From positions 1-22,912 of the forward strand of contig JAJRTR010000175.1 in the NCBI GenBank assembly GCA_024278215.1: a DNA stretch of 22,912 nucleotides, written 5' to 3'. This DNA comes from a bacterium (GTDB lineage Bacteria; UBP15; UBA6099; JAJRTR01). Shown piece after piece: positions 3,111 to 21,057 of this stretch. The translations under genes and the position numbers were made by a program. Position 1 is the first letter of the stretch, and the number at the start of each line of letters is the position of its first letter. Below the pieces are notes generated by a model. The model worked only from the letters and a program-made list of their open reading frames with translations, was not told the origin of the DNA and ran no database searches.

Positions 3111-3871
3111 TCGTTCACCACAAAAGCGTCCACAAATTCAGTTAGTTTCTTGAGTTCTTCGATATAGCCGCGAAAAAGTATATCCAGTTCGGCCTTGTTC
3201 ATTTTCACCTTGTCCACCTTCATCTGTTGCAGACGCCTGATGGTAGTAAGCTCGACACCGGCCTCGTTCTGCACCGCTTCTATCAGCGCGACAGCGTCAC
3301 TGACAGGCGTTTTCCCGATAAGGCGCAGAATGTTCCTGAACACAGTAAGGAAGTTGGGCAGAGTCTCCTCGAGAAACGGCTGGAGCCTGTTCCTGCGGGT
3401 ATCCATCTCGAAGTAGGATTGGATCAGCCTGAGCCGTTTGCCGCGAAGGTTCTCCTCGACCTGGTGGCGCAGATTATCGAGCGAAATATCGATGTCGCGC
3501 AGCGGGTCGTCGCCGAAGATAACCACGCTGTGATCGCGCCATTCGAGAAACTCCATCGGGAACACATCTGTCGAGTGCTCCACAAATTCACGGTCGACAA
3601 CCACAGGACGCGACTTGAGTTTTTTGAAATGGCGGTTGAATATGCCGCGCAGTGAAACGAGCAGTTCGATACCCACCTTATCGAAAACCATAAAAATATT
3701 GATATCCGATTTTCCTGGAATAAAGTTGCCGCCCGTCGCGCTTCCGAAGAGCACCGCCGCCTCGAGCCGGCACCCCGAACCTCCGACACCCGACAGCACA
3801 TCTTCAATCAACGCTTTCAGGACCGGCACAAGCTCGTCTCTTATCTTTTCCCTGTTGGCTAATTCCGCCAC
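3107..3871 (-). CDS. Nucleotidyltransferase-fold (pol beta superfamily) protein
   Basis: The 254-residue protein starts at GTG with a GAGGTG site 7 bases upstream. Residues 37-60 carry the pol-beta-type signature GSATGG (G43-S44) followed by SDIN (D56), and a later Asp (D93) lies on a VVVDREF strand. The usual D-x-D pair is D-I-N here, so one metal ligand of the classical motif is replaced; D-I-N is, to my knowledge, seen in some bacterial members of this fold. The C-terminal half is helical and rich in charged residues. It heads the minus-strand group with the TPM gene, overlapping it by 4 bases. The substrate is unknown. It might be a regulatory or toxin-antitoxin-like nucleotidyltransferase, but no HEPN partner is adjacent. 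Confidence 0.7.
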   Translation of the reverse strand: MAELANREKIRDELVPVLKALIEDVLSGVGGSGCRLEAAVLFGSATGGNFIPGKSDINIFMVFDKVGIELLVSLRGIFNRHFKKLKSRPVVVDREFVEHSTDVFPMEFLEWRDHSVVIFGDDPLRDIDISLDNLRHQVEENLRGKRLRLIQSYFEMDTRRNRLQPFLEETLPNFLTVFRNILRLIGKTPVSDAVALIEAVQNEAGVELTTIRRLQQMKVDKVKMNKAELDILFRGYIEELKKLTEFVDAFVVNE

Positions 3872-8342: not shown

Positions 8343-9053
8343 CTATATATTCAACATCTGCAAAACAATACGGTCCTGAAGCTTTCTGATGTAATTCGAG
8401 TGAACTTCATAACCGTTCATTATCATACTGAACGCGGCGGTGTTTCCGTTTGGACGTATGTAATAACCGCTCAGGGAACACACGCCCCGCAATGCTCCGG
8501 TCTTTGCCCAGAAACGCCCTTTTGTCTCGATCAATCGCTTTTTAAGCGTGCCTTTTTCGCCGGGCGTCGCCAGCACTCTCCTGAACTCCTCCCTGAGATA
8601 TGAATTATAGAACGCATACAGCAGCGCATTCAATACTCCCGGGGTTAATCTGTTTTTTCGCGATAGTCCTGAACCATCTTCAATATGTATCGTACCGTCC
8701 GTTGCAATATTGTATTTTTTGATAATATCGCCCACTGTCCGTGTGCCCGATTCGCGAGTGCCCGCCTCTCCCTTGAGCGCTCCGATAACCCTTATCATCT
8801 GCTCCGCGATAAAATTGTCGCTGTAATTCCCCATCACTTCCAGCACATCCACAAGCTCCTCCGACGGAATGCGCCTGAAAAATCTGTAACCTGCCGGAAC
8901 ATCTTTCCTCTTTGCCATCCTTACGTCTACTTCTACTCCCGCCCGCCTTAATGCGCCTGTCAGGACAGAACCATAAAACAATGCCGGATACAAGACGGGA
9001 TATTCGTGTTCGACAACACTGCCGCAATGCACCTTTCCGCTTATCGTTATCAT
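8343..9053 (-). CDS. dacB: DacB/PBP4-type D-Ala-D-Ala carboxypeptidase, C-terminal part of a stop-split gene
   Basis: This 236-residue segment continues in the same frame from the upstream N-terminal part; only a single TAA at 9075-9077 separates them. It carries the SxN motif as SDN (about residues 78-80), the DGSGLSR loop, and KTG (184-186) in FWAKTGALRG, all typical of S13 peptidases. The first ATG after the stop is at 9053, with only a weak CAGGA upstream. Translated alone it would lack a signal peptide and the nucleophilic SxxK, so it should be inactive. Possible explanations are nonsense mutation, sequencing error or read-through. The coding pattern is otherwise intact. Confidence 0.85.
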   Translation of the reverse strand: MITISGKVHCGSVVEHEYPVLYPALFYGSVLTGALRRAGVEVDVRMAKRKDVPAGYRFFRRIPSEELVDVLEVMGNYSDNFIAEQMIRVIGALKGEAGTRESGTRTVGDIIKKYNIATDGTIHIEDGSGLSRKNRLTPGVLNALLYAFYNSYLREEFRRVLATPGEKGTLKKRLIETKGRFWAKTGALRGVCSLSGYYIRPNGNTAAFSMIMNGYEVHSNYIRKLQDRIVLQMLNI

Positions 9054-9074
9054 TCCACGCGCATCCTGGGTAAC

Positions 9075-9788
9075 TTAAATCTCGGTAGCGCCCTTTGATA
9101 CACTCTCAACATTATTCCTTATCAGCGAAATGTCCGGAACCGGATCGAATTCGATATTCGCCGGGCGGCCCGGCGTCGTATCGCCCCGTATTTCCATTTT
9201 AAGACAGTTTCCGCCCGCGGACAGCGCACCCGGCCTCGGCGCGTAGCACCATTCGAGGTCATCCTCCTCCCACGAATCCGGCCTGTCGCTTCCTGCAAAA
9301 AATGTATCATCCAGCCACAGAACCCCTGAAACTTTTTTCAGGCCGCTCCTCACTATCCGGCGCGCAATCTCATCGGCTCCCTCCGTGGCATTCTCCTCGT
9401 AAAACTCATCTTTCATCGTCGGGTCGCCGTAACCCTTAACATAGAGTCCCCCCGCCTTTCCACTTGCTCCATCAAATCCCTTCGCGAAAAAATCTGTGTA
9501 AAATCTGTATCTCGGCCCCAGCGCCAGTATCGCCGCGCCCGCTGTAATAAGCTTCATATTCGATGCCGGTATGAAAACCCTGTTTTCATTTATTTTCAAC
9601 AGCACCTTTCCCGTGTCCAGGTCCTGAATAAGTATTCCTACAACCGCTCCCTTCAACAGCCCGTCACTCGCAATTTTCCTTATCTCATCGACATTCCGAT
9701 TATCCGCCAATGCTCCGGATGCTGCAAAATAAAACATAACAGTGCAAATAACCGCAGTATTTCTTATTGTTTTCAATATCTTTCTCAT
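9075..9788 (-). CDS. dacB: DacB/PBP4-type D-Ala-D-Ala carboxypeptidase, N-terminal part of a stop-split gene
   Basis: The 237-residue part starts at ATG with GGGAG 8 bases upstream. A signal peptide (residues 1-28, ending GALA-DN) sends it to the periplasm. The S13 nucleophile motif is SNMK (S76, K79) in FIPASNMKL. The domain insert typical of PBP4 begins after YGDPTMKD and includes WLDDTFFAG and GALSAGGN. The frame ends at TAA (9075-9077), yet the downstream bases continue the same protein without frameshift. Read through, the whole gene (8343-9788) would give about 481 residues, normal for DacB, with all three catalytic motifs. As written, neither part can be a complete enzyme. Confidence 0.87.
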   Translation of the reverse strand: MRKILKTIRNTAVICTVMFYFAASGALADNRNVDEIRKIASDGLLKGAVVGILIQDLDTGKVLLKINENRVFIPASNMKLITAGAAILALGPRYRFYTDFFAKGFDGASGKAGGLYVKGYGDPTMKDEFYEENATEGADEIARRIVRSGLKKVSGVLWLDDTFFAGSDRPDSWEEDDLEWCYAPRPGALSAGGNCLKMEIRGDTTPGRPANIEFDPVPDISLIRNNVESVSKGATEI

Positions 9789-10446
9789 CTGCGATGCTCC
9801 CTTTGCACCTATATATTATCATCCCCTATTACTGCCATTTTTTGTTACATTCCTTAGAGACCTTCTTTTAGTAATCGAATCGTTCAATGCAGACATGATA
9901 TAATTTCTTGTTTTATCCGTACTATCATGTCGGCCCTAACCCTTAAATGCTTCCACTGCAATCACAAATATAATCACGACAAATTACAAATGTCTGAACA
10001 AAACATTCACCCTGTGTTTTTGCATGTGTATGTTATTATCTAATTCCGTATTTGTACACATATCACTTACGAAAGCACAAAAATATGATAGTCCAATGCG
10101 CTGTTTGCTTTTAAGGTCAATATGCCGTCCCTGTTCTATCCGATGCTTAATTGCGCAATAACATCCATACACACAAAAATGCCAAAGTCGTAATATATCG
10201 ATTATTTAAAGTATATTTTTCTTCTTTACACAATTTCAACGTGCAATAACGCATGATGTATTATTTTTCCATCCCAGGGATTGAACATGCCTGAAAACCA
10301 AATGTTTACCGGAGAACATGTTAAAACGCATTGCATGTAACTTTGCAATAATACATTATCATAAGAACACGGATATACCTTTTTGCCAGTCTTCAGTGAA
10401 ACGAATCATTTAAGTCGTGAAGATATATATTTTTAAAAGCAAATTA

Positions 10447-10464
10447 TGTAATTACGTAATTACA
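10447..10464. promoter_or_regulatory. 18-bp perfect palindrome, candidate operator upstream of ispD
   Basis: TGTAATTACGTAATTACA reads the same on both strands and is also a tandem pair of the palindrome GTAATTAC. It lies about 110 bases upstream of the ispD -10 box and about 180 bases before its start. Such a site suits a dimeric repressor or activator. Which gene it controls, if any, is not known. Confidence 0.45.
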
Positions 10465-10569
10465 CACCGGGATTGTGTTCCGGCATTCAAGCATATTACA
10501 TGATGAATATGGTGTAACTATAAAATTACGAGAGATTAGAAAGATTACAGAGCCAATCGCTGTTGAATG

Positions 10570-10578
10570 TGGTATACT
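10570..10578 (+). promoter_or_regulatory. Extended -10 promoter for ispD
   Basis: TG (10570-10571), one base, then TATACT (10573-10578) form an extended -10 element. No good -35 is present at the expected spacing, which an extended -10 can tolerate. The leader before the ATG would be about 60 bases, with GAGG at 10633-10636 as ribosome-binding site. Confidence 0.45.
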
Positions 10579-10647
10579 ATAGTGAAAAGCTGCTTGTTCC
10601 GGAGAGCCACACGTTCAAATGATTATTTCTGATGAGGTTATGACACT

Positions 10648-11319
10648 ATGATTTACGCAATTATCCTTTGTGCCGGCTCAGGAGCCAGACTCGGGGCGGA
10701 TACACCTAAATGCTTTGTAGAAATAAATGAAAAACCAATGTTTTTCTATTCCGTTCGACTCATGGCGAATAATAGCATGATAGATAATATCGTGCTAACC
10801 TGCCCGGCAGGATGGAAAAAAAGCACTGAAAATCTGATCGCCGGATGGGGATTCAATAATATAGTTGTAATTGAGGGCGGTAAAAGCCGACAGGAAAGTG
10901 TTTTTCTCGCTCTGAAAACCCTACCGGAAAATACATCATATATCGTTATACATGATGGCGCCAGGCCCTGCGCGTCGAATGACCTTCTGTCTCTTGTCCT
11001 TTATAATGCAATTGAGCACAGCGCCTGCGTTCCTGTTATTCCAGCTACCGATACTATAAAAATTCTCGATGACAACAAATATGTCTTAAAAACCCTCGAC
11101 CGTGCATCACTCGTTATGGCCCAAACACCACAGGCCTTTAATTTCAATATCCTGCTCGCTGCTCATATCCACGCAGCCGAAAATGATTTTATCGCAACTG
11201 ACGACTCTTCAATCCTGGAACATTATGGAAGAAAGACTTTCGCTGTCGACGGAAGTATTGCAAATATTAAAATCACACACCCACAGGATATAATTCTCGC
11301 AAAACGCCTGCTTTTATGA
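10648..11319 (+). CDS. ispD: 2-C-methyl-D-erythritol 4-phosphate cytidylyltransferase
   Basis: IspD transfers CMP from CTP to methylerythritol phosphate in the MEP isoprenoid pathway. The 223-residue protein shows the nucleotide-binding start (LCAGSGARLG, then PKCF), the HDGARP motif, PATDTIK, LDRASLVMAQTPQAF and the ATDDSS-to-NIKITHP end, all IspD signatures. The related ribitol-phosphate enzyme TarI is less likely given the TPKCF and QTPQAF context. It stands alone: no ispF, no operon partner, and more than 1.4 kb of non-coding AT-rich DNA downstream. Its base composition is clearly more AT-rich than that of the genes on either side, with many AAT, ATA and ATT codons. This fits a different history or relaxed composition in this island. 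Confidence 0.9.
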   Translation: MIYAIILCAGSGARLGADTPKCFVEINEKPMFFYSVRLMANNSMIDNIVLTCPAGWKKSTENLIAGWGFNNIVVIEGGKSRQESVFLALKTLPENTSYIVIHDGARPCASNDLLSLVLYNAIEHSACVPVIPATDTIKILDDNKYVLKTLDRASLVMAQTPQAFNFNILLAAHIHAAENDFIATDDSSILEHYGRKTFAVDGSIANIKITHPQDIILAKRLLL

Positions 11320-11930
11320 TATTTTTGTTATCCAACGTATGCCTAATCACAATCCTTCCTGCTCTTTTAGATCTAACGTACTGATATTATTAAGCATCTT
11401 TATACATCATACCGCTTCATAAACTATCATAAAGAATCATAATATTTCTTTCCTGTTTCCTCGATAATCATTGAAAGAACACAAAACATGATCGTTCTAT
11501 ACCTTATCAAAACTCCCTATAACACTCTTTCACACGCCATTTACCGCTTTTGGCTCTTTGTCTTCGATATTATTGGTACGACACAAGCAGTAACAATACA
11601 ACAAATCATATAACATTATTTCAGTCTCCTTTTTCAGCAATATCTCACTTTTAAATATCTGCTACAATGTAATTTTATATTTAATATATTTTGATTTTAG
11701 TTTCCCTCTATGTTTTGTGTGATTTAATCTGATTTTGTGTATAAATCAGTTAATTATGTTTTTACAAATATCAGATTTTCAATAGCATCTTATGTATCCT
11801 GTTTGCATTTTATGTGCATCCTTTAAATATCATTTCCTGACTTTTCAATATATTTGTTGATATCTGATAATGGTAATTTGCCATATTTTTTTCATTATTT
11901 TTGTGTAATATTGAAAAAACCGATTGTTTG

Positions 11931-12125
11931 TATTGCAATAGCAATATGTTTTCTGCTTTTCCATAATCAATTACGGTATTGCATAATAACAAAGCGCTGT
12001 ATATTGCTATTATCGTCGGAAGATTGCCATTTTATTAAAATCAATCTCATATATCATATAATGCAATATTTACCCATTAAAAGCCTGAAATTAGCAATAT
12101 CGTGTTTTCAATGATTTTATATTGC
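11931..12125. repeat. Cluster of GCAATA/TATTGC hexamers
   Basis: Eight copies of GCAATA or its complement TATTGC occur in 195 bases: at 11931, 11935, 11941, 11977, 12002, 12063, 12094 and 12120. The first two form the palindrome TATTGCAATA (11931-11940). For random DNA of this composition I would estimate well under one copy. They are irregularly spaced and in both orientations, so this is not a simple tandem repeat. Confidence 0.5.
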
Positions 12126-12577
12126 CTTTTATATCCATTGGAGAAATACATATTGTAATATTTTAGTTGTACATCGGGAATACATAAGAAGCGCCTCAAA
12201 GAATACATCAAAGCTGAACAGTGTAAAACACGTCGTAGTGTCGTGTCAACAAGAAAAGATGTAAGAGCCAATTGCACAATTCTGATTTCTGCTGCGGTCG
12301 CGCGAAATTGTCCTCGACATATTCTACAGAACGCCTGAGAGGATTTTATACATCCGCCTTACTCTGAACAATTTTGCTCGACCTCACTACGAACATTATT
12401 TTGCAATCGACGCTCTGTTTTATAAAAAAATGTTATGACAGACCTGATATACTTTTGTGCTTTTGGGAAAGGTGACTGTTTCAATTTTAAAGGGCAATGA
12501 GATAATTGACTGAAAAGCATGGTTTTTTGCAAGTGTATATATCATGTGAGTTATCCGGATTACGTAAGGCTATGTAC

Positions 12578-12605
12578 TTGCATTTCTATAACTTCATATT
12601 ATAAT
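12578..12605 (+). promoter_or_regulatory. Sigma70-type promoter for the hdrCBA-mvhD-metVF operon
   Basis: TTGCAT (12578-12583) and TATAAT (12600-12605) are separated by 16 bases. The -10 is a perfect consensus. Transcription would start near 12612, leaving a leader of about 130 bases before hdrC. It is the best promoter in the region and faces the right way. Confidence 0.6.
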
Positions 12606-12666
12606 GTCGTAAGTTTGGGATTATGAAAATGATATCGGGCGATTGTTCAGGATACGAGGACAAAAC

Positions 12667-12709
12667 GCTGTTAACAGCATAGAGAAGGCAACGCGAAGCA
12701 CAACGTGCT
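12667..12709. promoter_or_regulatory. Palindromes in the hdrC leader
   Basis: GCTGTTAACAGC (12667-12678) is a perfect 12-bp palindrome, and AGCAC-AAC-GTGCT (12697-12709) is a short hairpin. Both lie between the proposed transcription start and the hdrC ribosome-binding site. They could be an operator and an mRNA hairpin that limits access to the start. A redox- or C1-responsive control is possible, but nothing in the sequence identifies the regulator. Confidence 0.4.
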
Positions 12710-12742: not shown

Positions 12743-13288
12743 ATGAGCACAACCGTAGTAAAACCCGATAGGGAATTCACGAAAAAGATAAGCGAGGCGA
12801 GTGGGGTGGATGTCAGCGCGTGCTACCAGTGCATGAAATGCTCGGCGGGCTGCCCGGTGGCGGAAGTTTCGGACTCGACGCCGGCGCATATACTTAGAAA
12901 AGTGCTGCTGGGGATGAAAGACGAGTTGATGCAGGGCGACTTTATATGGCTGTGCATCGGATGCGAGACATGCAAAACACGATGTCCGCAGGATATAAGC
13001 ACGCGCGCGGTAGTGGACGCGCTCAAACACATGGCATTTGAAGAAAACGCGGAACCAAAGGAAAAGAACGTGGCACTGCTTTATAGAACGTTCCTCAATA
13101 TAGTGAAGACCAGAGGGCGAATAAACGAGCCGCTCCTGATGATGCACTACAAGATGGGTTCGAAGGATTACATGGGCGATATGGACCTTGGAATGGAAAT
13201 GATAAAGAAGGGCAAGATGGGCATCAATCCGCTCTCGGGCAGGATCAGAGGAAGCCGCCAGGTGAGAGAAATCATCGGGGAGAAATAG
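12743..13288 (+). CDS. hdrC: Heterodisulfide reductase-type subunit C (iron-sulfur)
   Basis: HdrC carries two [4Fe-4S] clusters that pass electrons between HdrA and HdrB. The 181-residue protein has two ferredoxin-type motifs, C27-C30-C33-C37 (CYQCMKCSAGCP) and C71-C74-C77-C81 (CIGCETCKTRCP), the normal HdrC layout. ATG at 12743 is preferred because AAGGGGG lies 8-9 bases upstream; a GTG at 12710 adds 11 residues without a good site. It is the first gene of a six-gene cluster and ends 4 bases before hdrB. There is no methanogen CoM/CoB metabolism in view, so the heterodisulfide name reflects homology only; the likely role is electron transfer in a soluble complex. Confidence 0.93.
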   Translation: MSTTVVKPDREFTKKISEASGVDVSACYQCMKCSAGCPVAEVSDSTPAHILRKVLLGMKDELMQGDFIWLCIGCETCKTRCPQDISTRAVVDALKHMAFEENAEPKEKNVALLYRTFLNIVKTRGRINEPLLMMHYKMGSKDYMGDMDLGMEMIKKGKMGINPLSGRIRGSRQVREIIGEK

Positions 13289-13292
13289 GTCA

Positions 13293-14165
13293 ATGGCAAA
13301 AAAATACACATATTATCCCGGCTGCTCGTCGCACACGTCGGGAAAAGATTTTGAGGAATCGCTGCAGGCGGTCTGCCGGCATCTCGGAGTGGAACTGATC
13401 GAGTTGCCGGACTGGAATTGCTGCGGAGCGAGCGCGACACATATCGCCGAGCACGAAGTGGGTGTCCAACTCAGCCTGCGAAACCTCGCAATGGCGGAAA
13501 AGTTGGCCGACCGCGATGTGGTTACTGCCTGCGCCGCCTGCTACTCGCATCTCAAATACGCAGAGTACGCGGCGAAGAACGAAGGCGTAAAAAGCAAGAT
13601 CGGGCAGTATGACGGCAAGATCGGCGCTCGCAATCTCATAGACATTCTGCACAACGATGTCGGTCTCGACGAGATTGCCGCAAATGTGAAACATAAACTA
13701 GAAGGGCTCAGGCCTGTCGGTTACTATGGTTGCCTGATGCTGCGCCCGCCGGAAGTGATGCAGCTTGACGATGTCGAAAATCCGAAGTATATGGAAGACA
13801 TTGTCGGCGCGCTGGGCGGCGAGCCGGTACACTGGTCGTACAAGACGGAATGTTGCGGCGCGAGCCTCGCGATTCCCCGCACGGACATTGTTCTGAAACT
13901 TGTCGGCAAACTACTCGCGAAGGCAGAAGAGGCGGGCGCGAACTGCATAGTCACGGCGTGTCCGCTCTGCCAGCTCAACGTCGATTCGAGGCAGAAGCAG
14001 GCGGGCGAACTGCTTGGAAAATCGTTTAATCTGCCTGTGTATTATTTTACCGAACTAATAGGCATCGCATTCGGCATACAGGAATACCGGACATGGCTCA
14101 ACCGCCACATAGTAGACCCGAAGCCTCTCATCGACCAGGTGCTCTCCGCACCTGCCGCTCGCTGA
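13293..14165 (+). CDS. hdrB: Heterodisulfide reductase-type subunit B (CCG domains)
   Basis: HdrB holds two unusual noncubane [4Fe-4S] clusters in its CCG domains. In this 290-residue protein the first motif is C11, C43-C44, C80 and C83, matching CX31CCX35CXXC exactly. The second is C147, C187-C188, C223 and C226, also complete. In methanogens these clusters reduce the CoM-S-S-CoB disulfide; in bacterial Hdr-Met complexes the true acceptor is uncertain, and HdrB may serve as the electron exit toward MetF or an unknown disulfide. It begins 4 bases after hdrC, which supports coupled translation, and precedes hdrA by 21 bases. Confidence 0.94.
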   Translation: MAKKYTYYPGCSSHTSGKDFEESLQAVCRHLGVELIELPDWNCCGASATHIAEHEVGVQLSLRNLAMAEKLADRDVVTACAACYSHLKYAEYAAKNEGVKSKIGQYDGKIGARNLIDILHNDVGLDEIAANVKHKLEGLRPVGYYGCLMLRPPEVMQLDDVENPKYMEDIVGALGGEPVHWSYKTECCGASLAIPRTDIVLKLVGKLLAKAEEAGANCIVTACPLCQLNVDSRQKQAGELLGKSFNLPVYYFTELIGIAFGIQEYRTWLNRHIVDPKPLIDQVLSAPAAR

Positions 14166-14186
14166 CAACAAGGAAGGGACTTGATC

Positions 14187-17100
14187 ATGAGCAAGAACAA
14201 GTATAAAGATACAAACAATAAGAAAGGCGAAGTGGTCGGGACTGGCGGCGGCAAAGTCGGCTCGGTCATGGTAGTGGGCGCCGGCATAGCCGGCATGGAA
14301 TCGTCGCTTGGCCTTGCCGATTCCGGTTATCTTGTCTATCTTGTTTCCAAGGAACCGACAGTCGGCGGCCGCATGGCGCAGCTCGACAAAACATTTCCGA
14401 CAAACGACTGCTCGACCTGCATGATTTCGCCCCGGATGGTCTCCGTCGGCTCGCATCCCAACATCGACATCATTACCATGGCGGATGTAGACAGTGTCAG
14501 CGGCGAAGCGGGCAACTTCAAAGTCAAAGTCAGGAAGCAGCCGCGTTACATCGACGAATCCAAATGCACCGGCTGCGCCGAATGCACGACTGTATGCCCG
14601 GTGCATATACCCGACCCGAACAATGAAAACCTCAGCGACCGAGGAGCGACATACCGGCTGTTTCCGCAGGCGGTGCCCAACTGGTTCGCGATCACCCGCG
14701 ACCGCACCGCGCCCTGCAAAAACAGGTGCCCGGCGCACATCAGCGTGCAGGGCTATGTCAATCTCATCGCCGAAGGGCGTTTCAAGGACGCGCTGGAAGT
14801 GATCCGTCAGCGCAATCCCTTCCCGTCGGTCTGCGGCAGGGTTTGTTTCCATCCCTGCGAGGAAGTTTGCAACCGAGGACAGGTCGACGAGCCTGTCGCA
14901 ATCAATAATCTCAAGCGTTTCGTGTCAGACATCGAACTTGAAGAGGCGGGCGTGATCCCGAAAAAGCTTGGCGTCACCGAAGACCCGTCGAAGAATCCCT
15001 GGAAGAATATCGAACCGGCGCAAAAGCGTGAGGAGAAGGTCGCCATCATAGGCGCGGGCCCGTCCGGACTCACCGCCGCGCACGATCTCGCTCTGTGGGG
15101 TTTCAAATGCACAGTGTTCGAGAAACTGCCCATGGCGGGCGGAATGCTCGCGGTCGGCATACCCGAATACAGGTTGCCCATGAAGGTGCTCCAGTATGAA
15201 ATAGACCGTGTGAAACAGCTCGGAGTGGAAATAAAACTGAATACGGCAATAGACAAAAACAATGGAATCGACAAACTGTTCGAGCAGGGCTACAAGGCCG
15301 TCTACATAGCGGTCGGCTCGCACGGCAGCATGAAACTGCGCGTCAGGGGCGAGGAACTACCCGGTGTGATGAGCGGCATAGACTACCTGCGCGACATCAC
15401 GCTCGGAGAGAAGACCGAACTGGGCAAAAATGTGGCGGTCATCGGCGGCGGCAACGTCGCGATGGACGCGGCCCGCACCGCCATCAGGGAAGGCGCGAAA
15501 GTCACGGTCGTATACCGCAGGAGCCGCCAGGAGATGCCCGCCCACGAGTGGGAAATCGCCGAGGCGGAGAGAGAAGGAATCGAATTCAAGTTCCTCACGA
15601 CGCCGCTGGAGATAGTCGCGGGCGCAGGCGGCAGGGTCGACCGGTTAAAGTGCATACAGAACGAACTGGGCGAACCCGACGCGAGCGGTCGCCGCAGGCC
15701 CGTTCCCATCGACGGCTCGGAATTCGACATCGAGCTCGACACAGTCATCGCGGCCATCGGGCAGGCGACGGAAGTGGACTTCCTCACCGGCAAAGACGGT
15801 GTGGAAACCACGAAATGGGGCACAGTCATCACAAATGAAAAGACCGGTCGTACCGACCGTGAAGGCGTGTTCTCCGGCGGCGACTGCGTCACTGGCCCCG
15901 GCATGGCGATCGAAGCTATCGGGGCGGGCAAGAACGCCGCAGAGTCCATCCGCCGCTACCTGCTCGGTGAAGACATAGACGGCGCACGCCTCGAAGACGA
16001 ACTAATGGCTTCCACTCCCCTCGACGAGCACACTATAAACAACGCGCAGAAAGCGTCGCGCCCCAGGCCCAAACTGTTGCCTTACGACCAGCGCACAGGC
16101 AACTTCGACGAAGTGGAGATGACGATCACCGCCGAAGAAGCCGTCGCCGAAGCAAAGCGCTGCCTCAACTGCGGCCCCTGCGCGGACTGTCGCCTCTGCG
16201 AGATCACCTGCCAGAAAGAAGCCATCGACTTCACCCAGACCGAGCAGATAACAACTTATGATGTCGGCGCCATGATCCTGTCGCCCGGCTACAAGCTGTT
16301 TGACCCGCGCGAGCTCGGCGAATTCGGCTTCGACCACATGGACAATGTCATCACCAGCATGCAGTTCGAGCGAATGCTCAGCGCGTCCGGCCCATACGAG
16401 GGACACGTCGCCAGGCCGTCGGACCACGAAGAACCCAAACGCATAGCGTTCATCCAGTGCGTCGGCTCACGAAACGAACGCATCGGGCGCGGCTACTGCT
16501 CGTCGGTGTGCTGCATGTACGCCACGAAGCAGGCGATTATCGGTATGGAACACTGCAAGGGGTCGGAAGTATCCATCTTCTACAGGGACCTTCGCGCATT
16601 CGGCAAAGGCTTCGACCGCTACTGGCAGTCGGCGCGCGACAAGAACGGTGTGCGCTACGTCAAGGCGTCGATCTCGACAATCAAGGAAGACCCGAACAAC
16701 AAAAATCTCATATTGAGGTATCTCGAAGGCGATTCGTTAAAAGAAGAAGAATTCGACATGGTGATCCTCTCCTGCGGCCTTGTGCCGAACCCCGACGGCA
16801 TAGCGCTCTGCAACCGCCTCGGCGTCGATCTCGACAAATACGGATTCGCCGAAACCGACCCGAACATGCCCATCGCAACAAACCGGGAAGGCATTTATGT
16901 ATGCGGCGCGTTCGAGAGTCCGAAGGACATACCTGAATCGGTCGTGCAGTCGACAGGCGCGGCGGGCAAAGCCATGGCGTTGCTGGGCGACGCGCGCTGG
17001 ACGGCGACAAGCACGAAAGAATATCCCGAGCCGTTGGACGTCAAACCCGAGGACGAAGTCCGCATGGGTGTCTTCATCTGCCATTGCGGCATAAATATCG

Positions 17101-18761
17101 CGGGCGTCGTCGACGTGAAACGTGTCGCGGAAGACGCCGGCAAACAGCCGGGCGTTGTTCATGCCGAGGACATTCTATTCACCTGCTCGCAGGACTCGCA
17201 GGACCTCATACGCAGAATCATCAAAGAAAAAAATCTTAACAGGGTTGTCGTCGCGTCCTGCTCGCCCAGGACACACGAACCGCTATTCCGCGAGATGCTC
17301 AAGGAAGCCGGCCTCAACCCCTACCTGTTCGAGATGGCCAACATCCGAGACCAGTGTTCATGGGTACACTACAGCCACCCGGAAAAAGCGACAGAAAAAG
17401 CTATCGGACTCGCCCGGATGGCTATCGCCAAGGCCCGGAAGCTCGAATCGCTGCAATCGGCGACACTCGATGTCACACACACGGGTCTTGTCATAGGCGG
17501 CGGCGCGGCGGGCATGACGGCGGCACAGTCACTCGCAGACCAGGGTTTCGACGTGCATCTGGTCGAGCGCGCGGCGCAGCTCGGCGGCGAAGCCCTGAAC
17601 CTGCGCTACGCGATGGACGGCTCGGACATAAGACCGGTTGTTGAAAAAATGATCGACCAGATCACGAACAACCCGAAAATAACTATTCATTTCAACAGCG
17701 AACTCGCGGACCTTTCCGGCGGCGTCGGCGCGTTCAAGAGCACACTTACTTCCGGAAACGGCGACGGCACGCAGGTAATCGAACACGGCGCGCTGGTAAT
17801 CGCCACCGGCGCGAAGGAATACAAGCCGACGGAATACATGTACGGCCAGGATGAACATGTCATGACGACGCGCGAGCTCGAGATGGCTGTGGCCTCAGGC
17901 AAACTGAACCCTAAAGAGCTCAACGACATAGTCTTCATACAATGCGTCGGCTCGCGCTGCGACGAACGCGACTACTGCAGCCGCGTGTGCTGTTCGCAGA
18001 CGGTGAAAAATACGATCAAACTTAAAGAGATGAATCCCGACCTGAATATCTATGTGATGTACCGCGACATAAGGACATACGGGATGCGTGAAGACTACTA
18101 CCGCAGGGCGCGCGACCTGGGCGTTATCTTCGTCAGGTACGACAAGGACGAGCCGCCCGAAGTAACGAAGAACAGCGGACGGCTTGCCGTAACGGTGAAA
18201 GACCAGATGATGGGCCGTGTGCTGGAGTTCCCGGCGGACGCTGTGTCGCTCGCGGCGGCGGTGGTGCCGAGAACGAGCACCAGGAAACTTGCAAAAACCA
18301 TCAAGGTGTCTGAGAGCCAGGACGGCTTCTTCCTCGAAGCACATGTGAAGCTGCGCCCGATAGACTTCGCGCTCGAGGGCGCGTACATGGCGGGCACGGC
18401 GCACTCGCCGATGTCGCTGGACGAAGCGGTGTCGCAGGGTCTGGCGGCTGCGGCGCACGCGGGCGGCGTGCTGGGCAAAGAGAAGCTCCAGGGCGACGCA
18501 CACGTGGCGCATGTGAACGAAGACCTGTGCGCCGGCTGTGTGACATGCGTTAGAGTATGCCCCTACGGTGTGCCGCAGATGAACATGCGGGGCAAGGCGG
18601 AAATATCGCCGCTGGCATGCCACGGCTGCGGAACCTGCGTCAGCCAGTGTCCGGCGAAAGCCATTGAACTGCCCGGCTTCACCTACGACCAGATATCCTG
18701 CATGTGCAATGAAACATATTCGTTCGATTTCGATAAAGACAAGGCGCCGGCAGGCTCCTGA
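14187..18761 (+). CDS. hdrA: Giant HdrA: two HdrA modules with an inserted GltD/NfnB-like NAD(P)H-FAD module
   Basis: HdrA is the flavin subunit that splits electron pairs in Hdr complexes. This 1524-residue version starts at ATG 14187 (GGAAGGG 9 bases upstream). Order: FAD motif GAGIAG (31-36), NDCSTCM (C75, C78), ferredoxin C127-C130-C133-C137, then a GltD-like insert at ~175-655. The insert has cysteines of the Fer4_20 type (C177, C181 onward), GAGPSG (289-294), GGGNVA (420-425) and YRRSRQEMP, where R444-R445 suggest NADPH. The first HdrA module resumes with a CLNCGPCADCRLC cluster (659-671) and FIQCVGSR. A second HdrA module starts near M960 (FICHCG), with GGGAAG (1104-1109), another FIQCVGSR, and a C-terminal two-cluster ferredoxin (C1448-C1458, C1478-C1488). 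Ordinary HdrA is about 650 residues. Confidence 0.93.
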   Translation: MSKNKYKDTNNKKGEVVGTGGGKVGSVMVVGAGIAGMESSLGLADSGYLVYLVSKEPTVGGRMAQLDKTFPTNDCSTCMISPRMVSVGSHPNIDIITMADVDSVSGEAGNFKVKVRKQPRYIDESKCTGCAECTTVCPVHIPDPNNENLSDRGATYRLFPQAVPNWFAITRDRTAPCKNRCPAHISVQGYVNLIAEGRFKDALEVIRQRNPFPSVCGRVCFHPCEEVCNRGQVDEPVAINNLKRFVSDIELEEAGVIPKKLGVTEDPSKNPWKNIEPAQKREEKVAIIGAGPSGLTAAHDLALWGFKCTVFEKLPMAGGMLAVGIPEYRLPMKVLQYEIDRVKQLGVEIKLNTAIDKNNGIDKLFEQGYKAVYIAVGSHGSMKLRVRGEELPGVMSGIDYLRDITLGEKTELGKNVAVIGGGNVAMDAARTAIREGAKVTVVYRRSRQEMPAHEWEIAEAEREGIEFKFLTTPLEIVAGAGGRVDRLKCIQNELGEPDASGRRRPVPIDGSEFDIELDTVIAAIGQATEVDFLTGKDGVETTKWGTVITNEKTGRTDREGVFSGGDCVTGPGMAIEAIGAGKNAAESIRRYLLGEDIDGARLEDELMASTPLDEHTINNAQKASRPRPKLLPYDQRTGNFDEVEMTITAEEAVAEAKRCLNCGPCADCRLCEITCQKEAIDFTQTEQITTYDVGAMILSPGYKLFDPRELGEFGFDHMDNVITSMQFERMLSASGPYEGHVARPSDHEEPKRIAFIQCVGSRNERIGRGYCSSVCCMYATKQAIIGMEHCKGSEVSIFYRDLRAFGKGFDRYWQSARDKNGVRYVKASISTIKEDPNNKNLILRYLEGDSLKEEEFDMVILSCGLVPNPDGIALCNRLGVDLDKYGFAETDPNMPIATNREGIYVCGAFESPKDIPESVVQSTGAAGKAMALLGDARWTATSTKEYPEPLDVKPEDEVRMGVFICHCGINIAGVVDVKRVAEDAGKQPGVVHAEDILFTCSQDSQDLIRRIIKEKNLNRVVVASCSPRTHEPLFREMLKEAGLNPYLFEMANIRDQCSWVHYSHPEKATEKAIGLARMAIAKARKLESLQSATLDVTHTGLVIGGGAAGMTAAQSLADQGFDVHLVERAAQLGGEALNLRYAMDGSDIRPVVEKMIDQITNNPKITIHFNSELADLSGGVGAFKSTLTSGNGDGTQVIEHGALVIATGAKEYKPTEYMYGQDEHVMTTRELEMAVASGKLNPKELNDIVFIQCVGSRCDERDYCSRVCCSQTVKNTIKLKEMNPDLNIYVMYRDIRTYGMREDYYRRARDLGVIFVRYDKDEPPEVTKNSGRLAVTVKDQMMGRVLEFPADAVSLAAAVVPRTSTRKLAKTIKVSESQDGFFLEAHVKLRPIDFALEGAYMAGTAHSPMSLDEAVSQGLAAAAHAGGVLGKEKLQGDAHVAHVNEDLCAGCVTCVRVCPYGVPQMNMRGKAEISPLACHGCGTCVSQCPAKAIELPGFTYDQISCMCNETYSFDFDKDKAPAGS

Positions 18762-18784
18762 CATAATTCTTGGAGGAAATGGAA

Positions 18785-19264
18785 ATGGCGGAGACAGAGG
18801 AAAAGGTAGAAGAAAAGCAGCCGAAGCAACCGGTGGACCCGAACTTTGTGCCGAAGATCGTAGCTTTCTGCTGCAACTTCTGCGCTTATGCCGCGGGCGA
18901 CCTGGCAGGCTCCACAAGGACGGAGTATCCATCGAATATAAAGGTAATCAGGCTTCCCTGTTCCGGCAGGGTGGACACCCGGCTGCTGCTGCGCGCGTTC
19001 GAGGAAGGCGCGGACGGGGTGTATGTCGCCGGCTGCGAGGAGGGAAGCTGCCACTTCGCCGAAGGCAACTACTGGGCGAAGCGGCGCGTCAAAAATGCAA
19101 AGAAACTACTCGATGAAATAGGCATCGGCGGCGAGCGGCTCGAGATGTTCAACTTCTCGGCCTCCATGTTCGATAAGTTTGTCGCAAACGCGAAAATAAT
19201 GGATGAAAGAATAAGAAAACTTGGGCCGAGCCCCGTTAACGTGGCGGCCGCAAAATCAAAATAA
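18785..19264 (+). CDS. mvhD: MvhD-type iron-sulfur subunit
   Basis: MvhD carries a [2Fe-2S] cluster and links HdrA to an electron-donating or accepting partner such as a hydrogenase or formate dehydrogenase. The 159-residue product shows FCCNFCAY (C29-C30, C33), GDLAGSTRTEYP, LPCSGRVD and GCEEGSCHF, the family signature. ATG at 18785 is chosen since GGAGG lies 8 bases upstream; the ATG at 18779 is too close. An acidic/lysine-rich N-terminal extension of about 20 residues precedes the fold. No mvhA, mvhG or fdh gene is nearby, so here it probably joins HdrA to MetV, as in Moorella-type complexes. It follows hdrA by 23 bases. Confidence 0.92.
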   Translation: MAETEEKVEEKQPKQPVDPNFVPKIVAFCCNFCAYAAGDLAGSTRTEYPSNIKVIRLPCSGRVDTRLLLRAFEEGADGVYVAGCEEGSCHFAEGNYWAKRRVKNAKKLLDEIGIGGERLEMFNFSASMFDKFVANAKIMDERIRKLGPSPVNVAAAKSK

Positions 19265-19277
19265 TCGGAGTGACAAT

Positions 19278-19991
19278 ATGATAGTAGCTGAAACAAAACC
19301 GATCGAAGAAATATACGGATTCATCGAACCGTACAACAAGATCATGGTGCTCGGTTGCGGCGGATGCGTATCGGTGTGCCTCTCCGGCGGAGAGAAAGAG
19401 GTCGGCGTGCTGACTTCCGCGCTCAAGCTGAAGAGGAAGATAGACGGCCGCGAACTCGAGGTGGTCGAGATGACCATACCGCGCCAGTGCGACTGGGAAT
19501 ACTTCGACCTGATGGGCAGCCGGCTCGACGAGGTGGAAGCTGTCGTGAGCATCGGATGCGGCGCGGGCGTGCAGGCGCTCGTCAAAAAGTTCCCGGATTC
19601 GCTCGTCTATCCCGGCCTCAACACCAGCTTCCTCGGCGTGGGCGAAAAGCCCGGCGTTTGGGTCGAATACTGCCAGGGCTGCGGCAGTTGCGTGCTGGGC
19701 CTCACAGGCGGTATATGCCCCGTGGCGCGCTGCTCGAAACACATCCTCAACGGCCCCTGCGGCGGCTCGGAAAAGGGAATGTGCGAAGTCGACCCAAAGA
19801 ACATTCCCTGCGTCTGGCAGCTCATCTACGACCGCCTCAAGTCCATCGACAGACTCGACCTCATCGAGAAGATCATGGACATGAAAGACTGGAGCACCGC
19901 GACCGACGGCGGTGTGCGCAGGATGGAGAATCCCGAAGTCTTCGCGCTCGAACACAAGCAGCAGGAAGACAAAGAGCCCGCTAAGGGTTGA
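19278..19991 (+). CDS. metV: MetV-type methylenetetrahydrofolate reductase partner, zinc/iron-sulfur
   Basis: MetV-like proteins pair with MetF in acetogens and related bacteria, feeding it electrons in place of direct NAD(P)H use. The 237-residue product has an N-terminal cysteine cluster CGGCVSVC (C27, C30, C34) with a Rossmann-like region. Its C-terminal domain contains YCQGCGSCVLG, GGICPVARCSK, NGPCGGSEKGMCEV and CVWQLIYDRL, matching the MetF-associated C-terminal family (PF12225 type, from memory). Several cysteines could bind Zn or Fe-S. ATG at 19278 has CGGAG 7 bases upstream, and the gene follows mvhD by 13 bases. The stop is 106 bases before metF. Confidence 0.88.
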   Translation: MIVAETKPIEEIYGFIEPYNKIMVLGCGGCVSVCLSGGEKEVGVLTSALKLKRKIDGRELEVVEMTIPRQCDWEYFDLMGSRLDEVEAVVSIGCGAGVQALVKKFPDSLVYPGLNTSFLGVGEKPGVWVEYCQGCGSCVLGLTGGICPVARCSKHILNGPCGGSEKGMCEVDPKNIPCVWQLIYDRLKSIDRLDLIEKIMDMKDWSTATDGGVRRMENPEVFALEHKQQEDKEPAKG

Positions 19992-20011
19992 GTCGACATA
20001 TAACAACTATC

Positions 20012-20025
20012 CTGCCGCGCGGCAG
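20012..20025 (+). other. Perfect GC palindrome in the metV-metF gap
   Basis: CTGCCGCGCGGCAG is a 14-base perfect palindrome, folding as a 5-bp stem with a GCGC loop. It sits 20 bases after the metV stop and 72 bases before the metF start, in the only long gap of the operon. No U-tract follows, so it is more likely an mRNA stability or processing element than a terminator. Confidence 0.4.
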
Positions 20026-20097
20026 CGCATACGGCGGCGGCACGGATTGCGATGATGCCGAAATTATAAAATAAATTCTGTACAGGGAGTTGAACCC

Positions 20098-21057
20098 ATG
20101 GGTGAAGCACAGGAAAAAGCAAATAGCTCTGAAATGATCTCGGGCAGCAATCTCGAAAAAATATTCCGCGCGGGCCACTTCGCGATTACCACCGAATGCG
20201 GGCCGCCCAAAGGCGCAGACGTCGAACGCCTCAAGGAAAAGATCAACCACATAAAAGGCTGCTGCGACGCCGCGAACGTCACGGATAACCAGACCGCCGT
20301 CGTGCGCATGTCCAGCATCGGCGCAAGCGCGATACTCGTCCAGGAAGGCGTCGAACCCATCATGCAGATGGTCACTCGCGACCGCAACCGCATCGCCGCC
20401 CAGAGCGACATGTTCGGCGCCCACGCGCTCGGCATCCGCAACATGCTCTGCCTCACCGGCGACCACCAGAAGTTCGGCAACCACCCCACCGCCAAAAATG
20501 TCTTCGACATGGACTCGATACAACTTCTGAAGGTCATTGACCACATACGCACCGAGAACAAAGTCATCGGCGGCGACGATGTGGAAGGCCCCGCGAAGAT
20601 GTTCCTCGGCGCGGCGGCCAACCCCTTCGGCGACCCCTTCGAGTTCCGCGTCTTCCGGCTCGCCAAAAAGATACAGGCCGGCGCCAACTTCATCCAGACC
20701 CAGTGCATCTACGACATGGACCGCTTCAAAAAATACATGCAGATGGCCTGCGACCACGGCCTCGACAAGAAAGCCTTCATCATGGCGGGCATCACGCCGC
20801 TGAAGTCCGCCGGCATGGCCAACTACATGAACAAATTCGTCGCGGGCATCTCCGTTCCCGACGAAATCATCCAGCGCCTCAAGGGCACGCCCAAGGAAAA
20901 ACAGGCCGAAGAAGGCATCAAAATATGCCTCGAACAGATCGAAACCGTGCGCAACATACCGGGTGTCGCGGGCGTGCATCTCATGGCCATCGAATGGGAA
21001 CACAAGGTCAGGGGCATACTCGAACAGACCGATCTTCTGCCCAGGCCGCAGGTCTGA
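20098..21057 (+). CDS. metF: Methylenetetrahydrofolate reductase
   Basis: MetF reduces 5,10-methylene-H4folate to 5-methyl-H4folate with a bound flavin, in the methyl branch of the Wood-Ljungdahl pathway and in methionine synthesis. The 319-residue TIM-barrel protein shows TTECGPPKGAD with the conserved acid E33, CLTGDH (D122) at the flavin site, AAANPFGDP, FIQTQCIYD (Q202 region) and AGITPLKS. Length is slightly above the ~296 of E. coli MetF because of an N-terminal extension. GGGAG lies 8 bases before the ATG. Placement after hdrCBA-mvhD-metV argues that it receives electrons through MetV and the Hdr complex rather than only from NADH. It converges on the 198-residue gene. Confidence 0.95.
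   Translation: MGEAQEKANSSEMISGSNLEKIFRAGHFAITTECGPPKGADVERLKEKINHIKGCCDAANVTDNQTAVVRMSSIGASAILVQEGVEPIMQMVTRDRNRIAAQSDMFGAHALGIRNMLCLTGDHQKFGNHPTAKNVFDMDSIQLLKVIDHIRTENKVIGGDDVEGPAKMFLGAAANPFGDPFEFRVFRLAKKIQAGANFIQTQCIYDMDRFKKYMQMACDHGLDKKAFIMAGITPLKSAGMANYMNKFVAGISVPDEIIQRLKGTPKEKQAEEGIKICLEQIETVRNIPGVAGVHLMAIEWEHKVRGILEQTDLLPRPQV

Follow-up and report, generated by a model that had tools for sequence, protein, structure and literature searches.

How a whole GltD-like flavoprotein unit fits inside an HdrA protein, and what it would do there, is the question raised by one gene in the window (the whole stretch of DNA analysed here, 22,912 nucleotides of contig JAJRTR010000175.1). A sequence-only reading had placed a GltD/NfnB-like module within the ferredoxin region of a doubled HdrA, and Pfam, PDB and alignment results bear this out. 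The gene lies in a single cluster with the order hdrC-hdrB-hdrA-mvhD-metV-metF (12743-21057, Table 1). Its product probably belongs, as HdrA, to a methylenetetrahydrofolate (methylene-THF) reductase of the Hdr type (type IV), HdrCBA-MvhD-MetVF, in which electrons from NAD(P)H, probably NADPH, would pass through the insert and HdrA to methylene-THF, probably coupled to a second partner.

Anatomy of the fused gene and its operon

The frame is free of stops from 14181 to 18761, and the ATG at 14187 opens a chain of 1524 residues. A domain search of the full chain returns the order HdrA, GltD insert, HdrA, second HdrA. Pfam detects Fer4_20 at residues 174-253 together with several Pyr_redox_2 stretches, and the solved HdrA 5odc_A aligns to residues 28-172 and 659-869 as one chain flanking the insert, and to residues 956-1128 and 1331-1501 as a second copy. 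The insert itself holds Fer4_20, a GAGPSG FAD site, an NAD(P) site and a C-terminal tail ending in RCLNC; the GltD-like profile NF009410 scores 545 bits on the protein (cut-off 516). No solved chain in the PDB searches spans both the HdrA and the GltD parts. FIQCVGSR, claimed earlier for both HdrA modules, is indeed found twice. The motif count gives three FAD-type glycine motifs (GAGIAG, GAGPSG and GGGAAG) and one for NAD(P) (GGGNVA, residues 420-425). Judged by PDB and motif comparison, the internal ferredoxin is absent from module 2. Equivalents of the E356/K409 pair are present in both modules (E728/K781 and E1232/K1274), and the ligand cysteines of ferredoxin motifs I and II are, like E728 and K781, invariant in the alignment (35/35 fused rows).

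Table 1. Coordinates of the hdr-met operon and of the parts of its fused hdrA gene
Feature	Position	Strand	Basis or content
hdrC	12743..13288	+	HdrC/QmoC models below cut-off; Fer4_8
hdrB, two CCG domains	13293..14165	+	profile searches
hdrA fusion gene	14187..18761	+	1524 aa; GltD unit splitting HdrA module 1, then HdrA module 2
HdrA module 1, first half (residues 26-172)	14262..14702	+	GAGIAG FAD Rossmann motif, Cys75/Cys78, ferredoxin motif I C127-C130-C133-C137
GltD unit, inserted (residues 173-662)	14703..16172	+	Pfam Fer4_20 (174-253)/Pyr_redox_2; PDB 9bov_A, 9n5u_A, 8oh5_C, 4ylf_B
NAD(P)-binding stretch GGGNVA...VVYRRSRQEM (residues 420-450)	15444..15536	+	YRR type
HdrA module 1, second half (residues 663-955)	16173..17051	+	ferredoxin motif II C665-C668-C671-C675, FIQCVGSR, bifurcation-signature E728 + K781
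HdrA module 2, N-terminal iron-sulfur domain (residues 956-1096, CHCG...)	17052..17474	+	PDB match, motifs
HdrA module 2, TrxR/FAD domain (residues 1097-1430)	17475..18476	+	E1232 + K1274 present
C-terminal 2[4Fe-4S] ferredoxin domain (residues 1436-1500)	18492..18686	+	Fer4_10, Fer4_7
mvhD	18779..19264	+	FlpD PF02662, E 3e-48
metV, iron-sulfur partner of MetF	19278..19991	+	PF12225, E 2e-36
metF, methylenetetrahydrofolate reductase	20098..21057	+	PF02219, E 4e-41

When aligned to insert-free HdrA, every GltD-bearing row has the insert bounded by FPQAVPNWFAI on one side and ferredoxin motif II on the other. In the insert-free HdrA of related operons FPQAVP runs directly into the CxxC...C of motif II; the insert thus splits one ferredoxin fold between its cysteine motifs. 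The far boundary had to be moved: HdrA had been thought to resume at KRCLNC (657-662), but comparison with PDB structures assigns C659 and C662 to the GltD C-terminal tail. HdrA resumes at about 663-665 with motif II (C665-C668-C671-C675), which makes the earlier 3' boundary 6-8 residues too early. The same tail bears on how the unit could be accommodated. Its RCLxC segment is N-terminal in NfnB (4ylf, residues 13-42 before a core at 44-462) and C-terminal to the GltD core in the window protein, StnC and NfnABC. Such a circular permutation would place both ends of the GltD unit close to each other and may have eased its insertion into a loop.

An AlphaFold2 model of residues 26-935, computed with 43 aligned copies, reached a mean pLDDT of 89 and a pTM of 0.85. 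Foldseek matches the GltD part of the model to NfnABC, StnC and NfnB. Its matches to HdrA run across the insert over 912-917 columns (8rwn_A with TM 0.93 by target over 917 columns, 5odc_A with 0.62), so that the HdrA fold is predicted to be complete around the GltD unit.

The operon neighbours likewise stand beside many other fused hdrA copies. This context was missed by the sequence-only reading, which was right on the anatomy except for the 3' boundary and, by homology, on direct NAD(P)H use. The host assembly (207 contigs, estimated completeness 95%) carries its Wood-Ljungdahl set together on contig C177: FTHFS, CooS, CODH/ACS alpha-beta, gamma and delta, methyltransferase, AcsV and FolD, with the FTHFS gene divided between the ends of C111 and C177. 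A second metV-metF pair lies without adjoining hdr genes on contig C195 (L154), which means that the window complex need not be the only methylene-THF reductase of the host; two kinds of this enzyme may be present. With regard to menaquinone, the assembly yielded no MqnA/MqnD family protein and no MenD above cut-off. Such a pairing of a Wood-Ljungdahl cluster with no detected menaquinone pathway was not met in the literature examined. A search of the assembly for 16S rRNA gave none.

Two other parts of the window deserve mention. The region 9800-12700, which separates the hdr operon from the leftward genes, is AT-rich and looks foreign or recently changed; its sole gene is ispD-like (10648-11319) and has a low GC3 of 0.40, where the other genes have about 0.55-0.8. 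At 8343-9788 two adjoining frames of 237 and 236 aa resemble the halves of a DacB-like D-alanyl-D-alanine carboxypeptidase, possibly a split or broken gene.

Distribution of the fusion and history of the insert

Genomes from three phyla were searched with the full window protein, retaining matches with E <= 1e-290. Such matches occur in 160 of 395 genomes of the phylum centred on a Desulfobacterales MAG, in 41 of 299 for the one centred on a Bacillota MAG and in 12 of 301 for the one centred on a Chloroflexota MAG. Among the matches listed, nearly all span from about residue 20 to residue 1500 in a single frame. Fused copies also occur in MAGs labelled Bacteroidales, Myxococcales, Lokiarchaeota and Methanomassiliicoccales. 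With more than 200 genomes of three phyla the order of domains is not rare, a point on which the sequence-only reading had taken no stand, and what the sequence-only reading had named as speaking against novelty, namely many well-described HdrA proteins of identical architecture, is largely the case: the arrangement is both widespread and published. The architecture is not new; the window protein joins the published Moorella thermoacetica kind, common in anaerobes.

These copies also bear on whether an assembly error joined hdrA to a separate gltD-like gene. The assembly is fragmented and different parts of the protein resemble different relatives, which would fit such an error. Full-length copies are however present in more than 200 other genomes, the frame is unbroken with even GC3 along the gene, and the donor-like homologs, which share no more than about 60% protein identity, are too distant for a misjoin. 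The probability of an artefact is accordingly next to nil, and we regard a chimera as ruled out by the independent full-length copies and the even GC3.

The survey yielded some further observations. A fused hdrA of another phylum (L130, genome G280) has an in-frame TGA at 3607, the position of Cys78 in the window, where the window copy has Cys. Several other fused copies contain one in-frame TGA each, which fits selenocysteine in HdrA. In an archaeal MAG (L017, 5314-11025) the fused HdrA has an MvhD domain at its C-terminus, within an open frame of 1904 residues. A large group (L026-L085) consists of doubled HdrA proteins that lack the GltD insert and are about 1000 aa long; many have an MvhD-like gene beside them, and they may represent the HdrA-like subunit found in other complexes, for example BamE. 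Two seeming HdrA-GltD fusions (L133 and L134) were left out due to their weak HdrA match.

A tree built from the HdrA parts requires seven changes between presence and absence of GltD, at least six of them forced by well-supported branches. The nearest relative of the window HdrA is that of G002, a genome of the same order; it is without the insert, and its hdrA is adjoined by hdrB, mvhD and metV. Residues of about 80-700 of the window protein are closest to the fused copies of order-mates G001 and G005 (47-78%, with one G001 stretch at 32%), and residues 700 to the end mostly to G002 (47-77%). In the segment tree of residues 112-690 the window, G001 and G005 form one clade. For residues 700-1230 the data reject a clade of these three that excludes G002 (p 0.0009) but do not reject one that unites all four (p 0.29). 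Together these patterns suggest that the cassette was transferred between hdrA genes. Given that the four-member clade is not rejected, a possible alternative is that G002 simply lost the insert and that rates are uneven. In the GltD tree of sampled fused rows, with the window row left out, a single and a multiple origin of the insert both fit. We did not meet this coming and going of the insert in the literature examined.

The NAD(P) fold varies as well. The residues following GGGNVA at the end of its second strand were compared in 35 fused copies: 22 have YRR and the other 13 xLE (Cys/Ser/Met-Leu-Glu). YRR is present in the window and in G005, CLE in G001 and its relatives. On a tree built without the motif columns the state changes six times, at least five of these forced by well-supported branches. 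Such repeated switching between YRR and CLE was likewise not met in the literature examined. Rossmann folds as a rule prefer NADP(H) when this position is Arg and NAD(H) when it is acidic. The YRR relatives with structures among the PDB matches include NfnB, StnC and bacterial GltD, all NADP(H) users. From its YRR motif, the window protein is predicted to prefer NADPH.

Tentatively, and with slightly more doubt than confidence, the GltD insert of type IV reductases might be seen as an exchangeable electron-entry cassette. It would have come and gone many times at a single position, recombination would have carried it from one hdrA gene to another, and its choice of nucleotide would have switched repeatedly between NADH and NADPH; the window copy would be NADPH-dependent and quinone-independent. 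If true, different donors drive the same methyl-branch enzyme in closely related organisms.

Proposed electron route and predicted cofactor preference

The simplest route that would use all conserved parts runs as follows. The GltD FAD would oxidise NAD(P)H, in the window copy probably NADPH, and electrons would travel singly through the Fer4_20 clusters of the insert to the ferredoxin that it splits in HdrA module 1; in methanogen HdrA this site serves ferredoxin. From there they would pass to the HdrA flavin(s), HdrC/HdrB, MetV and the flavin of MetF, which would reduce methylene-THF to methyl-THF in the last reduction of the Wood-Ljungdahl methyl branch. One or both HdrA flavins probably couple NAD(P)H oxidation to a second redox partner. 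StnC takes in NADPH, without bifurcation, through a GltD unit with this type of tail (PMC10482914), and DPD sets a precedent for connecting a GltD unit to an 8Fe ferredoxin (PMC8097209). The proposal of the sequence-only reading that one polypeptide takes NAD(P)H directly appears right by homology, and its three flavins and many Fe-S clusters are in line with the three FAD-type motifs and with the prediction for Moorella HdrA (three FAD, eight 4Fe-4S clusters and one NAD(P)H site; PMC9430772).

The main competing view retains the complex but has NADH as donor, as in Moorella, with YRR being an unreliable sign of NADPH. We take it as a serious contender, though with somewhat less than an even chance. 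The Moorella HdrA of the same architecture is reported to oxidise NADH (190 U/mg; PMC9430772), and GltD-like units of the glutamate synthase family include NADPH- and NADH-dependent forms. Nonetheless, the YRR relatives with both a structure and a known donor are NADP(H) enzymes, and two copies with the Moorella E/K spacing of 54, 454 and 42 residues (L106 and L112) carry CLE rather than YRR. It is also conceivable, if rather unlikely, that the complex operates in reverse, oxidising methyl-THF and making NAD(P)H as in syntrophic oxidation of acetate or methyl groups; related anaerobes use Wood-Ljungdahl gene sets both ways according to the available part of PMC6895022, but direction is not readable from sequence. 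We find it improbable that the GltD flavin bifurcates as in NfnB while HdrA merely relays. Homology to NfnB, with its bifurcating FAD, speaks for this; against it, the C-terminal tail of the insert is of the StnC/NfnABC type, StnC has lost bifurcation, and the two HdrA modules of the window protein both keep the Glu/Lys signature pair. The closest GltD units retain the Arg near FAD N5 (compare R239 of StnC), so that this residue has no bearing on the point.

Since 2014 it has been a standing question how type IV reductases couple NAD(P)H to methylene-THF and which second partner they use. According to PMC13040438, reduction of methylene-THF with NADH is not demonstrated for Moorella, and its second partner is not known. 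Mock and co-workers, as cited, proposed an unknown acceptor, whereas a 2026 paper proposed menaquinol confurcation (PMC13040438). The latter is disfavoured in the window host, where no menaquinone genes were detected in a still incomplete genome. The insert-free operon of an order-mate, the order-mates with the other motif and a host without detected menaquinone pathway offer natural comparisons, which help to separate the published models (an acceptor such as ferredoxin or flavodoxin versus menaquinol confurcation).

Comparison with known systems

With NfnB and GltD the insert shares Fer4_20 and the FAD and NAD(P) folds, though in permuted form. In StnC and the NfnABC large subunit (8oh5_C, 9bov_A, 9n5u_A) a GltD unit with the same C-terminal RCLxCG tail serves as the NAD(P)H entry domain of a larger chain, but there GltD is fused to NuoG-like parts and in the window to HdrA. 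A GltD unit inserted in the internal ferredoxin is also described for type III HdrA of methane- and alkane-metabolising archaea (nine sequences, otherwise like type I). In the available part of the source (PMC12054007) these have one TrxR domain and a GXGXXG NAD site, against two modules and GGGNVA in the window, and no MetVF operon is reported there. The type IV reductase of Sporomusa ovata matches the window in its HdrCBA-MvhD-MetVF operon and two TrxR modules, but its HdrA is without the GltD unit and the extra ferredoxin, has E/K in one module only and shows much lower NADH activity (PMC9430772).

The closest system is that of Moorella thermoacetica, whose HdrCBA-MvhD-MetVF is the type IV reductase of Mock 2014 (as cited in PMC5861303). 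Differences concern the length of HdrA (1524 aa in the window, 1487 aa in Moorella), the host, which belongs to another bacterial lineage and has no detected menaquinone pathway, and the NAD(P) motif, with YRR in the window against a CLE surmised for Moorella from the spacing-matched copies and not from its own sequence. In the Moorella HdrA (162.8 kDa) a GltD domain interrupts an extra ferredoxin and TrxR domain; the HdrA part that comes next is without internal ferredoxin, and both modules have E/K pairs (PMC9430772). The window protein has the same gene set, the same doubled HdrA with GltD interrupting the first TrxR/ferredoxin module, a second module likewise without internal ferredoxin and the E/K pair in both.
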